Source of the DNA: Geodermatophilus obscurus DSM 43160
GTDB lineage: Bacteria > Actinomycetota > Actinomycetes > Mycobacteriales > Geodermatophilaceae
Length of the DNA: 64,000 nucleotides
Assembly (NCBI RefSeq): GCF_000025345.1
Contig: NC_013757.1
Coordinates: 1,860,001 to 1,924,000, forward strand
Direction of reading: 5' to 3'
In this document: in pieces, positions 7,831 to 13,021 of the stretch
Layout: every line of letters starts with the position of its first letter
Position numbering within the stretch: the stretch's first letter is position 1
The notes under the pieces: model-generated
Told to the model about the DNA's origin: nothing
Databases searched by the model: none
The model's input: the letters and a program-made list of their open reading frames with translations, nothing else
Translations under genes and position numbers: made by a program

Positions 7831-9345
7831 GTGGCCCGGGGACCGGTCCTGCCGGACGGCGGCCTGCGGATGGGCACGCCGCAGGGCCGCTGGGTGCTGC
7901 TGGCGACCGTGCTCGGGTCGAGCCTGGCGATGCTGGACGCCACCGTCGTCAACGTGGCGCTGGAGCGGATCGGCACCGAGTTCGACGCCGGCTTCACCGG
8001 CCTGCAGTGGACGGTCAACGCCTACACGCTCACCCTCGCCTCGCTGATCCTCATGGGCGGCTCGCTCGGCGACCGCTTCGGCCGGCGGCGGGTGTTCGTC
8101 GTCGGCACCGTCTGGTTCGCCGCGGCGTCCCTGCTGTGCGGCCTGGCACCCGACGTGGGGACGCTGGTCGCCGCGCGGGCGCTGCAGGGCGTCGGCGGCG
8201 CGCTGCTGACCCCGGGCAGCCTGGCGCTGATCTCGGCGTCCTTCTCCGGTGCCGACCGGGCGGCGGCCGTCGGCGCCTGGTCGGGGCTGGGCGGGGTGGC
8301 CGGTGCGGTCGGGCCGTTCGTCGGCGGTTGGCTGGTCGGCGTCGACTGGCGCCTGGTCTTCCTGCTCAACCTCCCGCTGGCCGCGGTCGTCGTGGCCGTG
8401 GCGGTGCGCCACGTGCCGGAGTCCCGCGACCCGGAGGCGGCGCGCTCCCTGGACTGGCAGGGGACGGCGCTCGTCGTCGCCGGCCTCGGTGCGCTCACGT
8501 ACGGCCTCACCGCGGCGGGCGAGCCCGGACGCGGCCCCGGCGTGTGGGGCTGGGTCGCCGCCGGGCTGGTCGCGCTGGCGGGCTTCGCCGTCGTCCAGCG
8601 GCGTTCCCCGGCGCCGCTGGTGACCCCGGCCCTGTTCGCCTCCCGGCAGTTCACCGCCGCGAACGCGGTCACGCTGCTCGTCTACGCCGCCCTCGGGGTG
8701 GTCTTCGTGCTGCTGGTGCTGCACCTGCAGGTGGTGGCCGGGTTCGACCCGCTGCCGGCCGGTACCGCGGTGCTCCCGGTGACCGCCCTCATGCTGCTGT
8801 TCTCCGCGCGCGTGGGTGCGCTGGCCCAGCAGGTCGGCCCGCGGCCGCTGCTGACCGCCGGGCCGCTGGTCGCCGCCGCGGGGGTGCTGCTGATGGCGCG
8901 GATCGGCCCGGACGCCGGCTACCTCACCGACGTGCTGCCCGCGACGGCGGTCTTCGGCGCGGGGCTCACGCTGCTGGTGGCGCCGCTGACCGCGACGGTG
9001 CTGGACTCCGCGCCCGACCGGCTGGCCGGCGTCGCTTCCGGGGTGAACAACGCCGTGGCCCGCGCCGCCGGCCTGCTGGCCGTCGCGGTCGTGCCGGCCG
9101 CGGCGGGGCTCGGCGGGGTCGGGGTCGGCGACCCGGCCGCCTTCGGCGCCGGCTTCCGCACGGCCATGCTGGTCTGCGCCGGCCTGCTGCTCGCCGGCGC
9201 GCTCGTCGCCGCGGTTCTGGTGCGCCGGCCGCTGGGGACGCCGGAGCCCGGGCCGCAGCGGCGGCTGCCGATCGAGGAGTGTCTGCACTGCGGCGTCACC
9301 GGGCCGCAGGTGCACCCGGCTGCGATGGGGGAGAGGACGCGATGA
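7831..9345 (+). CDS. MFS drug transporter, DHA2 (14-helix) family
   Basis: A 504-residue integral membrane protein of the EmrB/QacA group, expected to export small molecules using the proton gradient. LDATVVNVAL in helix 1 is the DHA2 motif D1, and LGDRFGRRR after helix 2 is the MFS A motif. GGWLVGVDWRLVFLLNLP matches motif C and the family's conserved loop. About 14 hydrophobic helices can be counted. The C-terminal cytoplasmic tail carries CLHCGVTGP, a possible metal-binding pair found in some actinobacterial members. The start is GTG at 7831 (an in-frame ATG at 7870 is possible). The stop overlaps the ATG of the NhaA fusion gene, so the two transporters are translationally coupled. Confidence 0.9.
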   Translation: MARGPVLPDGGLRMGTPQGRWVLLATVLGSSLAMLDATVVNVALERIGTEFDAGFTGLQWTVNAYTLTLASLILMGGSLGDRFGRRRVFVVGTVWFAAASLLCGLAPDVGTLVAARALQGVGGALLTPGSLALISASFSGADRAAAVGAWSGLGGVAGAVGPFVGGWLVGVDWRLVFLLNLPLAAVVVAVAVRHVPESRDPEAARSLDWQGTALVVAGLGALTYGLTAAGEPGRGPGVWGWVAAGLVALAGFAVVQRRSPAPLVTPALFASRQFTAANAVTLLVYAALGVVFVLLVLHLQVVAGFDPLPAGTAVLPVTALMLLFSARVGALAQQVGPRPLLTAGPLVAAAGVLLMARIGPDAGYLTDVLPATAVFGAGLTLLVAPLTATVLDSAPDRLAGVASGVNNAVARAAGLLAVAVVPAAAGLGGVGVGDPAAFGAGFRTAMLVCAGLLLAGALVAAVLVRRPLGTPEPGPQRRLPIEECLHCGVTGPQVHPAAMGERTR

Positions 9346-11972
9346 GCACCAGCGTCAGCCGGCAGTCCACGCCGGGCGGGTGGGGCCTGCTCGCCCGGGT
9401 GGCCCCGCTGCGGCAGCGGCTGCGCACCGAGGCCGGGGGTGCCGGGCTGCTGCTCGCCGCCACCGTCGTCGCGCTGCTGTGGGCCAATTCGCCCTGGGGC
9501 GGCAGCTACGAGACCTTCTGGCACACCGAGTTCGCCGTCCGCTTCGCCGGCGCCGAGCTCGCCCTGGACCTGCAGCACTGGGTCAACGACGGCCTGATGG
9601 TCTTCTTCTTCTTCGTGGTCGGGCTGGAGATCAAGCGCGAGCTGGTGATGGGCGAGCTCACCGACCGGCGGCGGGCCGCGGTGCCCGCGCTGGCCGCGGT
9701 CACCGGCCTGGCGGTGCCGGCGCTGGTCTACGTCGCGTTCACCCTCGGCGACGAGGCGGCCTCGGCGTGGGGCGTGGTGATATCCACCGACACCGCGTTC
9801 CTGCTCGGCGTGCTCGCGCTCGTCGGGCCGGCCTGCCCGGCGCAGCTGCGGCTGTTCCTGCTCACCCTGGCCATCGCCGACGACGTCGGGGCGCTGACCG
9901 TGATCGCGCTGTTCTACACCGAGGACCTCGCCGTGGGCCCGCTGCTGCTGGCCGTGCTCGGGCTGGCGCTCATGGTCGCCCTGCGCTACCTCAACGTGTG
10001 GCGCGGGCCGGCCTACCTGGTGCTCGGCCTCGCGGTGTGGGTGGCGATGTACCTCTCCGGCGTCCACCCCACCCTCGCCGGGGTGGTGATCGCGCTGTTC
10101 ACCCCCGCCTATCCGGCGCGCCGGGACGAGGTGGCGGACGCCGCCCGGCTGACCCGGGCCTACCAGCAGTCGCCCAACCCGAGGTTCGCCCGGGCCGCGC
10201 GGCTGTCGATCGACCGTTCGGTGTCGGCCAGCGAGCGGCTGCAGCAGCTCTGGCAACCGTGGACCAGCTTCGTGATCGTCCCGGTGTTCGCCCTCGCCAA
10301 CGCCGGCGTCCCGCTCACCGGCGAGACGCTGCGCACCGCGGCCACCTCGCCGGTCACCCTCGGGGTCGTCGCCGGCCTGGTGCTCGGCAAGCTCGTCGGC
10401 ATCCTGGTCGGCACCGGCCTAGCGGTCCGGCTGCGCCTCGGCGAGCTGGCCCCGGGACTGACCTGGCTGCAGCTCGCCGGCGGCGCGGCGCTGTCGGGGA
10501 TCGGCTTCACCATCTCGCTGTTCATCGTCGACCTGGCCTTCGACGACGAGGCGCGGGCCGACCAGGCGCGGGTCGGCGTCCTGGTCGCGTCGGTGCTGGC
10601 CGCGCTGCTGGGCTGGGCGCTGTTCCGGCTGGCCGACCGCCGCCGCCCACCCGGCGCCGGGGCGCGGCCGGTGCTGCTCGACCCGCCGGTCGACGTCGAC
10701 CGCGACCACGTCCGCGGGCCGGCCGACGCGCCGCTCACCCTCGTCGAGTACGGCGACTTCGAGTGCCCGTTCTGCGGCCGCGCCACCGGGACGGTCGAGG
10801 AGCTGCGCGAGCGGTTCGGCGACCGGCTGCGCTACGTCTTCCGGCACGTGCCGCTGGTCGGCGTCCACCCGCACGCGCGGCTGGCCGCCGAGGCGGCCGA
10901 GGCCGCCGACGCGCAGGGCCGGTTCTGGGAGATGCACGACCGGCTGTTCGCCGGCCAGGACCGGCTGATGCCGACCGACCTGCTGGAGCACGCCGCGGCA
11001 GCCGGGCTCGACGTGTCGCGCTTCGCCCGGGACCTGGGGTCGAGCCGGTTCGCCCGCCGGGTCGAGGAGGACGTCGAGTCGGCCGAGGCCAGCGGCGTCA
11101 CCGGCACCCCGACCTTCTTCGTCAACGGACGGCGGCACACCGGGCCGTTCGACGCCGACAGCCTCGCCGCGGCGCTGCTCGCCGCCGGAGGGGAGGAGGG
11201 GCTGCCGCCGTCCGGTGACGACGGCCTGTCCGGGCTGGTGCTGCCGGCGCTCGGGCAGCGGCGCGGCGAGCCCCGTCCTGAGGCGGACGACGCGCCCGCG
11301 GACGTGCCGGCCGACCTGCCCGAGACGCCCGACCGGGACGGCGCCTTCCCCCGGCTGACCGACGAGCAGATCGCCCTGGTCGAGCGCTCCGCCACCCGCA
11401 TGCGCTGCGCGCCGGGGGACACCCTCTTCCGCGAGGGCGACGCCGGGTACGCCTTCCACGTCGTCGTCTCCGGGACCGTCGCGATCGTGGAGGACCACGG
11501 CCGGACCGGCCAGCGGGTCATCTCGGTGCACGGGCGGCACCGCTTCCTCGGCGAGCTGGACCTGTTCAGCGGCCAGCCGGTGTCGCTGACCGCCCTGGTG
11601 TTGCAGCCGGCCGAGGTGCTCCGCGTCGAGCGCGAGCAGCTGCGGGCCGTCTTCACCGCCGACCCGGCGTTCAAGGAGCTGGTGCTGCGGGCCTTCCTGC
11701 TGCGCCGCTCGATGCTGCTCGAGCTCGCCGCCGACCTGCGCATCGTCGGCCGGGGCGGCTCGCCGGACAGCCGGCGACTGCAGGAGCTGGCGCGCAGCCG
11801 CCGGCTGTCGGCCGGCTTCGTCGACCTGGACGCCGGCGGTGACGGCGCCGCGGTGCTCACCGAGCTGGGGGTCACCGAGGACGACCTGCCCGTCGTGGTG
11901 GGGCGGCGCGGCGGAGTGCTGCGCAACCCGACCGACGACGAGGTGATGGCGGCCGTCGAGGCCGTGGACTGA
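9342..11972 (+). CDS. nhaA: NhaA antiporter fused to DsbA, cNMP-binding and glutaredoxin-like domains
   Basis: The 876-residue protein has four parts in one frame. Residues 15-430 are a complete NhaA Na+/H+ antiporter with STDTAF (Asp150) and IADDVGA (Asp180/Asp181), the latter matching the essential aspartate pair. Residues 455-615 are a DsbA-type thioredoxin fold with CPFC (Cys475, Cys478) and a cis-Pro in TGTPTFFVNG. Residues 670-790 are a cyclic-nucleotide-binding beta-roll (PGDTLFREGD, FLGELDLFSG), but the arginine of the usual phosphate-binding cassette is replaced in GQPVSLTA. Residues 798-876 resemble the short glutaredoxin-like segment that links cNMP-binding domains to thioredoxin reductase in other proteins; here the flavoprotein part is absent. 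NhaA-DsbA fusions are known in actinobacteria. The two further domains suggest redox or ligand control of sodium export. The ATG overlaps the MFS stop. Confidence 0.9.
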   Translation: MSTSVSRQSTPGGWGLLARVAPLRQRLRTEAGGAGLLLAATVVALLWANSPWGGSYETFWHTEFAVRFAGAELALDLQHWVNDGLMVFFFFVVGLEIKRELVMGELTDRRRAAVPALAAVTGLAVPALVYVAFTLGDEAASAWGVVISTDTAFLLGVLALVGPACPAQLRLFLLTLAIADDVGALTVIALFYTEDLAVGPLLLAVLGLALMVALRYLNVWRGPAYLVLGLAVWVAMYLSGVHPTLAGVVIALFTPAYPARRDEVADAARLTRAYQQSPNPRFARAARLSIDRSVSASERLQQLWQPWTSFVIVPVFALANAGVPLTGETLRTAATSPVTLGVVAGLVLGKLVGILVGTGLAVRLRLGELAPGLTWLQLAGGAALSGIGFTISLFIVDLAFDDEARADQARVGVLVASVLAALLGWALFRLADRRRPPGAGARPVLLDPPVDVDRDHVRGPADAPLTLVEYGDFECPFCGRATGTVEELRERFGDRLRYVFRHVPLVGVHPHARLAAEAAEAADAQGRFWEMHDRLFAGQDRLMPTDLLEHAAAAGLDVSRFARDLGSSRFARRVEEDVESAEASGVTGTPTFFVNGRRHTGPFDADSLAAALLAAGGEEGLPPSGDDGLSGLVLPALGQRRGEPRPEADDAPADVPADLPETPDRDGAFPRLTDEQIALVERSATRMRCAPGDTLFREGDAGYAFHVVVSGTVAIVEDHGRTGQRVISVHGRHRFLGELDLFSGQPVSLTALVLQPAEVLRVEREQLRAVFTADPAFKELVLRAFLLRRSMLLELAADLRIVGRGGSPDSRRLQELARSRRLSAGFVDLDAGGDGAAVLTELGVTEDDLPVVVGRRGGVLRNPTDDEVMAAVEAVD

Positions 11973-12050: not shown

Positions 12051-12274
12051 GACCCTGCAGGGGGCCGGCGGTGTCCTGGACGGGGCCGGGACCCCGGAGG
12101 GTGGACGGTCCAGTACGTCACCGCGCTCGTGGCGGGACCCTGCCACGGGCCTGCGGTGCCTGACCGGAGACCCTGCAGGGGCGGGCAGAGCTCCTCGGAG
12201 GTTTCACAGGTGGGCCACCAACACGGCAGGTGGCCGTCGTCCGACGGTCGCGCGGGACGGCCAGCGTCCGCGCC

Positions 12275-13021
12275 ATGCGCGTCATCGGCCATCGCGGCAC
12301 ACCCACCGGCCCCCTGCTCACCGAGAACACCCTCCCGGCGGTGGCCGCCGCCCTCGAGGCCGGCGCCGACGGGGTGGAGGTCGACGTCCGGGCCACCGCT
12401 GACGGGGTCCTCGTCGTCGTCCACGACCCCGACCTCGGCCGGGTGCTGGGTACCCGCGCCGGAACCGGACCGGTCGTCGCGGAGACCCGCTACGCCGCGC
12501 TGCGCGTCCTCCGGTTGCCCGGCGGCGCGTACGTCCCCGTCCTCGACGAGGTCCTCGACCTCGCCGCCGCCTCCCGCGCGCTCGTCGTCACCGAGGTCAA
12601 GGCGGGCCTCGGCGGCCGGCGCGCCCAGACCGCAGTGCTGCTCGCCGGCCACCTCGAGGAGCGGAGGCGGCGGCGGCCCGGGGCCGACCGGATCATCACG
12701 TCCTCCTTCGACACGGTCAGTGCCCGGACCCTCGCCGGGAACGGCACCGTCGGCGGGGCGGTGATCCTCGAACCGTGGCAGGACCCCCGCCGGATGGCCG
12801 GCTGGGCTCGGCGCTGCGGGCTCACCGAGCTGCACCTGTCCGTCGAGCACATCCGTCGCGACCCGGCCGTGGTCGCCGACCTGCACGCGATGGGTCTGGC
12901 GGTCGCCGCGGGCCTCGTCGACGACCCCGAGGAGGGCGCCCGGTTCGCCCGGCTGGGCATCGACCTGCTGTGCACCGACGCGGTGGCCCGCGTCGAGGCC
13001 ACCGTGGGGTCGAGCGCCTGA
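12275..13021 (+). CDS. Glycerophosphodiester phosphodiesterase family protein
   Basis: The 248-residue cytoplasmic enzyme should hydrolyse glycerophosphodiesters to glycerol-3-phosphate and an alcohol. The family signature is complete: GHRG (His5 and Arg6), ENT in TENTLPA, VEVDVR with the two acidic metal ligands, and HDPDLGR with the second catalytic His. TEVK in the middle strand is a further metal-ligand position. The length fits the short bacterial UgpQ-like enzymes, and no signal peptide is seen. The ATG at 12275 places the first beta strand directly at the N-terminus; the longer frame upstream has no homology. No transport genes adjoin it, so it may recycle membrane phospholipid head groups. 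Confidence 0.9.
   Translation: MRVIGHRGTPTGPLLTENTLPAVAAALEAGADGVEVDVRATADGVLVVVHDPDLGRVLGTRAGTGPVVAETRYAALRVLRLPGGAYVPVLDEVLDLAAASRALVVTEVKAGLGGRRAQTAVLLAGHLEERRRRRPGADRIITSSFDTVSARTLAGNGTVGGAVILEPWQDPRRMAGWARRCGLTELHLSVEHIRRDPAVVADLHAMGLAVAAGLVDDPEEGARFARLGIDLLCTDAVARVEATVGSSA

Follow-up and report, generated by a model that had tools for sequence, protein, structure and literature searches.

A single gene in the 64,000-nucleotide stretch of Geodermatophilus obscurus DSM 43160 that we analyzed (NC_013757.1, positions 1,860,001 to 1,924,000; hereafter, the window) encodes an Na+/H+ antiporter of the NhaA family that continues into a DsbA-like thioredoxin domain, a cyclic-nucleotide-binding-type (cNMP) beta-roll, and a glutaredoxin-like (Grx) domain. 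This fusion is a new arrangement of known parts, a variant of the NhaA-DsbA kind. Its last two domains share homology with the N-terminal part of cNMP-Grx-flavoprotein fusions of Actinomycetes and appear chemically degenerate. The explanation that we favor, tentatively, is that the antiporter carries a cytoplasmic redox-control tail set by a flavoprotein. The build is kept across the family Geodermatophilaceae and the gene for a partner flavin enzyme is adjacent in some species; judging from these sequences, the redox state of the cell may control sodium transport. As far as titles and abstract openings in the open-licence literature go, we found no description of this architecture and no paper on the function of NhaA-DsbA fusions.

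Domains and conserved residues of the fusion protein

The sequence-only reading of the window had proposed four domains in one frame with an intact antiporter core, and both proposals were borne out, with Pfam matches for the NhaA, DsbA, and cNMP domains and a profile match to PDB 2lqo for the Grx-like domain. The first domain belongs to the NhaA family, scoring 465 bits against PF06965 (cut-off 23.5) and 340.8 bits against TIGR00773 (cut-off 254). Alignment to E. coli NhaA (PDB 1zcd) matched the 12-helix core, the Asp pair, the Lys, and the His; D180/D181 and K350 correspond to D163/D164 and K300 of the E. coli protein, which have roles in transport, and the antiporter residues checked were kept in all 40 aligned fused proteins. 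Unlike E. coli NhaA, the fusion has a longer VIII-IX loop and approximately 445 extra C-terminal residues, which make up the other three domains.

Helix bounds were taken from a full-length structure model (predicted local distance difference test score, pLDDT, 78.7; predicted template modeling score, pTM, 0.51) and grouped by hand into 12 helices. The loops contained 27 Lys/Arg residues on the N-terminal side versus 2 on the opposite side, and a hydropathy scan past residue 440 revealed no segment above the threshold used. Based on the positive-inside rule and homology to E. coli NhaA, the DsbA, cNMP, and Grx-like domains are predicted to be cytoplasmic.

The second domain showed the CxxC motif and cis-Pro loop of a DsbA-like protein and scored 86.6 bits against PF13462 (cut-off 23.2). 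Both cysteines of its CPFC motif and Pro590 were present in 40/40 fused proteins aligned, and the Thr-Pro loop in 39/40; Cys165, found in 32 of the 40, is the only further cysteine in most of them. NhaA-DsbA proteins without the tail share approximately residues 20–620 with the fusion (39–69% identity), and the records inspected for them are annotated nhaA or have no listed gene. They were frequent in the genomes sampled, being widespread in Actinomycetota and also found on proteobacterial plasmids. When 19 of the 47 distinct proteins of this kind were aligned, 17 had both CxxC cysteines. The other two (L200 in genome G008 and L202 in G002; L and G numbers are our handles for loci and genomes) have lost both (FTNA and FTSA), and these two together with the NhaA-DsbA protein of G007 sit on a very long branch of the NhaA-DsbA tree.

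The conserved cysteines and Thr-Pro loop, as well as the wide spread of tail-less proteins, would also suit a second explanation, which we consider doubtful: the DsbA-like domain would be a membrane-tethered thiol oxidoreductase positioned by the tail, with NhaA as its anchor or local source of pH or Na+ and with antiport unregulated. However, a mere anchor would not need the antiport residues, which all 40 proteins keep, and the extracytoplasmic side is where a DsbA-like oxidase would normally work, in contrast to the inside location predicted for this domain.

The third domain has the beta-roll fold of a cyclic-nucleotide-binding domain. Its phosphate cassette had been described as atypical, and this was confirmed: the cassette Arg of the solved cNMP domain 2pqq aligns with Val in the window protein. 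Arg was absent at this column in 79/79 tails aligned, whether or not fused to an antiporter, and the second-clade tails aligned (see below) have lost the cassette Glu as well. The sequence-only reading had suggested redox- or ligand-gated exchange; gating by a cyclic nucleotide is not supported, because the arginine that binds the cyclic phosphate is missing. Some tails carry an Arg one position before the cassette Arg column, which would allow an altered binding mode. Even so, we regard it as quite unlikely that the beta-roll is a true sensor of a cyclic nucleotide or other small molecule and acts as an allosteric gate on NhaA, in the manner of channels with cyclic-nucleotide-binding domains, with the Grx-like domain only as coupler.

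The final 80 residues gave no Pfam match above the gathering score. A profile of 48 relatives of this domain matched PDB 2lqo ('putative glutaredoxin Rv3198.1') at 1e-7, and the AlphaFold2 model showed a beta-alpha-beta-alpha-beta-beta-alpha topology, indicating a thioredoxin-type fold with sequence kinship to glutaredoxins. PF00462 was the commonest Pfam match among the 48 profile members (18/48, best 6e-4), with no such match for the domain in the window protein. Tail structure searches returned mostly cNMP-domain matches and gave no fold-search coverage of the Grx-like part. The nearest solved sequence relative is M. tuberculosis Rv3198.1, known as mycoredoxin-1; its Cys-x-x-Cys stretch (profile consensus) aligns to Ser-Pro-Asp-Ser in the window protein. 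The Grx-like part contained no cysteine, and hence no active-site Cys, in 24/24 fused tails aligned, which leaves CPFC as the only conserved dithiol. The simplest role of the beta-roll and Grx-like pair would be binding, either holding a partner or keeping the shape that the pair has ahead of flavoproteins.

Distribution, origin, and selective constraint

An assembly artefact or chance joining was ruled out, as the G. obscurus genome is one 5.32-Mb contig and the same full-length frame occurs in 21/25 other genomes of the genus; the tail is 97% identical to that of G. poikilotrophus. A tail search of the 26 genus genomes gave a strong match (E <1e-40) in 24, and 22 of these carried the full four-part chain. 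G013 and G021 have only a cNMP-Grx-flavoprotein and no full fusion, while G007 and G008 have NhaA-DsbA only, with neither the fusion nor a flavoprotein-type tail at E 1e-25.

Within the family, full-length matches (starting at residue 21 or earlier and ending at residue 865 or later) were found in 54/112 genomes. This count includes a G063 copy that matches over its entire length despite a single in-frame TAA and leaves out the broken or stop-containing copies of G042 and G057. The family members formed two clades, the genus type and a second clade, with 51–56% identity between them; G085 holds one of each. Outside the family, the matches listed included no full-length fusion in an order sample (397 genomes), one in a class sample (394 genomes; G585, of another family), and no new one in a phylum sample (396 genomes, E up to 1e-150); the samples overlap, and matches were listed to an E-value limit. 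In G585 (L168 8074-9261), the next same-strand frame past the fusion encodes a luciferase-like monooxygenase.

All trees were quick trees. In the tail tree, 24 fused tails (of 40 distinct fused proteins) made up one side of a branch with a support of 83. The NhaA-DsbA tree, containing 25 of the 40 fused and 47 tail-less proteins, forced at least three label changes, and the tail-less proteins of G444 and G466 grouped with the genus-type clade (support 93). These label-change counts fit gain or loss of the tail alike.

To describe constraint on the domains, we calculated nonsynonymous-to-synonymous ratios from proportions (pN/pS) and from substitution estimates (dN/dS); both ignore shared ancestry, and pN/pS is also raw for saturation. 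Pooled pairwise pN/pS values for NhaA, DsbA, cNMP, and Grx were 0.17, 0.28, 0.48, and 0.34 among eight proteins grouped closely with that of the window, 0.26, 0.25, 0.45, and 0.55 in a group of eight genomes sharing an operon (described below), and 0.41, 0.33, 0.61, and 0.67 in the second clade (15 proteins). By this measure, constraint acts on all four domains and is weaker in the tail. The Grx-like domains of the operon group (L058-L065) showed dN values of 0.34–0.44 from that of the window, far above those of the window's closest relatives; L013 and L067, which lack the operon, showed values just as high (0.44 and 0.38).

These rates bear on whether the tail is a passenger left from gene fusion, with a role at most in stability or oligomerization. 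In its favor, the two tail domains have pN/pS values (0.34–0.67) above those of NhaA (0.17–0.41), single comparisons with the window protein reached dN/dS values of about 0.9 in the tail (maxima of 0.87 in the cNMP and 0.92 in the Grx domain) and exceeded 1 in the linker, and catalytic residues have been lost. However, the tail is full length in nearly half of the family genomes and across two clades that have diverged to little more than 50% identity, pooled pN/pS is below 1 in each domain, and an overlapping flavoprotein gene is kept in eight species. We therefore consider a passenger tail improbable; the whole chain as a passenger is likewise not favored, given pooled pN/pS below 1 throughout.

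A flavoprotein as the possible partner

Among the tail matches listed for the class sample, 46/49 continue into a pyridine-nucleotide oxidoreductase (flavoprotein) half; three of these (L181, L183, L184) scored under the threshold of the Grx profile. The remaining three were the window's own fusion, that of G585, and G719, a stand-alone cNMP-Grx frame of 273 residues whose locus contains 389 N and was not used. All nine family genomes with a non-NhaA tail listed at E 1e-25 (the broken G057 copy aside) had the flavoprotein kind, as did 17/17 tail loci from the family to which G730 belongs, a count that includes two repeats. These cNMP-Grx-flavoproteins (L037, L137-L165) share the same module of approximately 220 residues with the fusion at 27–47% identity, and the cassette Arg is likewise absent; unlike the fusion, they have no NhaA or DsbA, and a thioredoxin-reductase-like flavoprotein half follows the module. 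Within the family, they seldom occur together with the full fusion (1/9 genomes; hypergeometric P 0.02, kinship ignored).

Response-regulator-Grx-flavoproteins (L190, L226, L227) carry a related Grx-like domain ahead of the same flavoprotein type, with a receiver domain where the fusion has its cNMP domain and with no membrane part. The window's genome encodes two of them elsewhere, L226 (~2.34 Mb) and L227 (~3.87 Mb). The flavoprotein half of L227 was read by eye only, versus an alignment for L226.

The sequence-only reading had seen in the tail the front half of a cNMP-binding thioredoxin reductase. The homology to flavoprotein fronts stands, and the reductase identity is not supported. TIGR01292 (thioredoxin-disulfide reductase) gave 190–210 bits in 4/4 flavoproteins, under its cut-off of 343.45, and L226 has no Cys pair in the region aligned with the CATC of its best-matching solved reductases. 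Reading by eye revealed no CxxC in L037, L038, L041, L166, L167, or L190. On these grounds, we rejected a true thioredoxin reductase as partner. Loss of the flavoprotein half, which had also been proposed, is one possible order of events; a flavoprotein is the product of the next, overlapping gene in eight genus genomes.

In these eight of the 22 genus carriers (G002, G003, G004, G006, G010, G016, G024, G025), the TGA of the fusion shares bases, as ATGA or GTGA, with the start codon of a response-regulator-Grx-flavoprotein gene (ATG in four, GTG in four). A gene matching the cNMP-domain histidine kinase of L190 comes after it; the Pfam domains of both neighbors were read in L190. Since one change suffices for the eight on the tree of 40 fused proteins (support 68), we count them as one event, and the operon probably either arose once and has been kept or is ancestral and disappeared from the branch of the window. 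An overlap of a different make-up occurs in G730, which belongs to another family: there, the end of an NhaA-DsbA gene and the start of a cNMP-Grx-flavoprotein gene share the sequence TGATG.

The tail's homology to flavoprotein fronts and the overlapping flavoprotein genes are the basis for reading the tail as a docking site. Redox control is also favored by the conserved antiporter residues and CPFC, the predicted cytoplasmic location of the added domains, the two response-regulator-Grx-flavoprotein genes of the window's genome, and the rarity of genomes with both the full fusion and a separate cNMP-Grx-flavoprotein. The beta-roll and Grx-like pair would be a docking platform, as in cNMP-Grx-flavoproteins, on which a flavoprotein would dock in trans. 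In some species, this would be the product of the gene that follows and overlaps the fusion, and in others that of a response-regulator-Grx-flavoprotein gene elsewhere in the genome. The docked flavoprotein would set the redox state of CPFC, directly or via a small thiol carrier, and that state would in turn alter antiport through the NhaA C-terminus and the long VIII-IX loop. Given the habitat of Geodermatophilus, we guess that the likely use would be adjusting the control of Na+ and pH when cells dry out or face oxidative stress.

Several observations weigh against this redox-control explanation. The CxxC of thioredoxin reductase is missing from the flavoproteins inspected, leaving the electron route to CPFC unexplained, and the relative placement of the domains is uncertain in the full-length model (pTM 0.51). 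The tail evolves faster than NhaA or DsbA. The eight operon genomes, needing one tree change, are best counted once, and no flavoprotein gene was found beside the window's fusion or at the 14 second-clade loci read. A hand count from the match listings gave 15 class-sample genomes with both NhaA-DsbA and a cNMP-Grx-flavoprotein. The two genes were adjacent in one (G730), separated by ~1.8 kb in tail-to-tail orientation in G499, and separated by ~15 kb in G497; in the other 12, they were distant or on separate contigs.

A more specific and unlikely form of redox control is a split, membrane-anchored relay, in which a CxxC-less flavoprotein under two-component control (by its receiver domain and the cNMP-domain histidine kinase) would dock on a dead cNMP-glutaredoxin platform of the antiporter and switch Na+/H+ exchange via the cytoplasmic DsbA-like domain. 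If true, such a circuit would let NAD(P)H directly control an ion gradient in soil actinomycetes. The tail and its neighboring genes name a concrete candidate partner, a thioredoxin-reductase-like flavoprotein. Two questions can thereby be tested together: what purpose DsbA domains serve on antiporters, and which substrates are reduced by the actinomycete flavoproteins that lack a CxxC and are fused to a cNMP or receiver domain.

Features and neighboring genes in the window

Table 1. Positions of the fusion gene, its parts, and adjacent genes (window coordinates)
Feature	Position	Strand	Basis or remark
DHA2/EmrB-type major facilitator superfamily (MFS) transporter gene	7831..9345	+	TIGR00711 235 bits vs cut-off 230.2
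NhaA-DsbA-cNMP-Grx fusion gene	9342..11972	+	876 aa, one intact frame; ATG start, TGA stop
NhaA antiporter domain, residues 26-427, 12 helices	9417..10622	+	Pfam PF06965 (Na_H_antiport_1) 2e-139
Extended VIII-IX loop, ~residues 255-294	10104..10223	+	Longer than in E. coli NhaA; predicted cytoplasmic
DsbA-like thioredoxin domain, residues 454-612	10701..11177	+	PF13462 (Thioredoxin_4) 3e-24, PF01323 (DSBA) 5e-19
CPFC dithiol motif, residues 475-478	10764..10775	+	Sole Cys pair kept in all aligned fused proteins
Disordered linker, residues 615-650	11184..11291	+	pLDDT <50 at 617-651; fastest-changing part
cNMP-type beta-roll, ~residues 667-790	11340..11711	+	Pfam cNMP_binding 688-772, 1e-15
Degenerate phosphate-binding cassette RFLGELDLFSGQPVSLTA, residues 734-751	11541..11594	+	Gly-Glu retained; Val replaces canonical Arg
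Glutaredoxin-like domain without cysteines, residues 797-876	11730..11969	+	2lqo profile match, fold topology
Glycerophosphodiester phosphodiesterase-like gene, downstream	12230..13021	+	PF03009 1e-28

The ATG of the fusion overlaps the stop of the upstream MFS gene as ATGA, and the two genes had been interpreted as coupled on this basis. The overlap is present, and the MFS gene lies upstream in 21/22 genus carriers (the exception being G014). However, it was absent beside all 14 of the second-clade fusions whose loci were read; we therefore rejected it as a core partner of the system. The C-terminal end of the MFS protein (window 9260-9342) is hydrophilic and contains a pair resembling Cys-x-x-Cys, ECLHCGVTGPQVHP.

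The downstream phosphodiesterase-like gene is probably unrelated to the fusion. A scan for promoters and terminators found none, and a GATase match in the window is based on a Pfam search of the window proteins only. Two of three second-clade fusions inspected (L196 3394-5919, L198 5435-6529) lie tail to tail with a gene for a DUF2382 protein.
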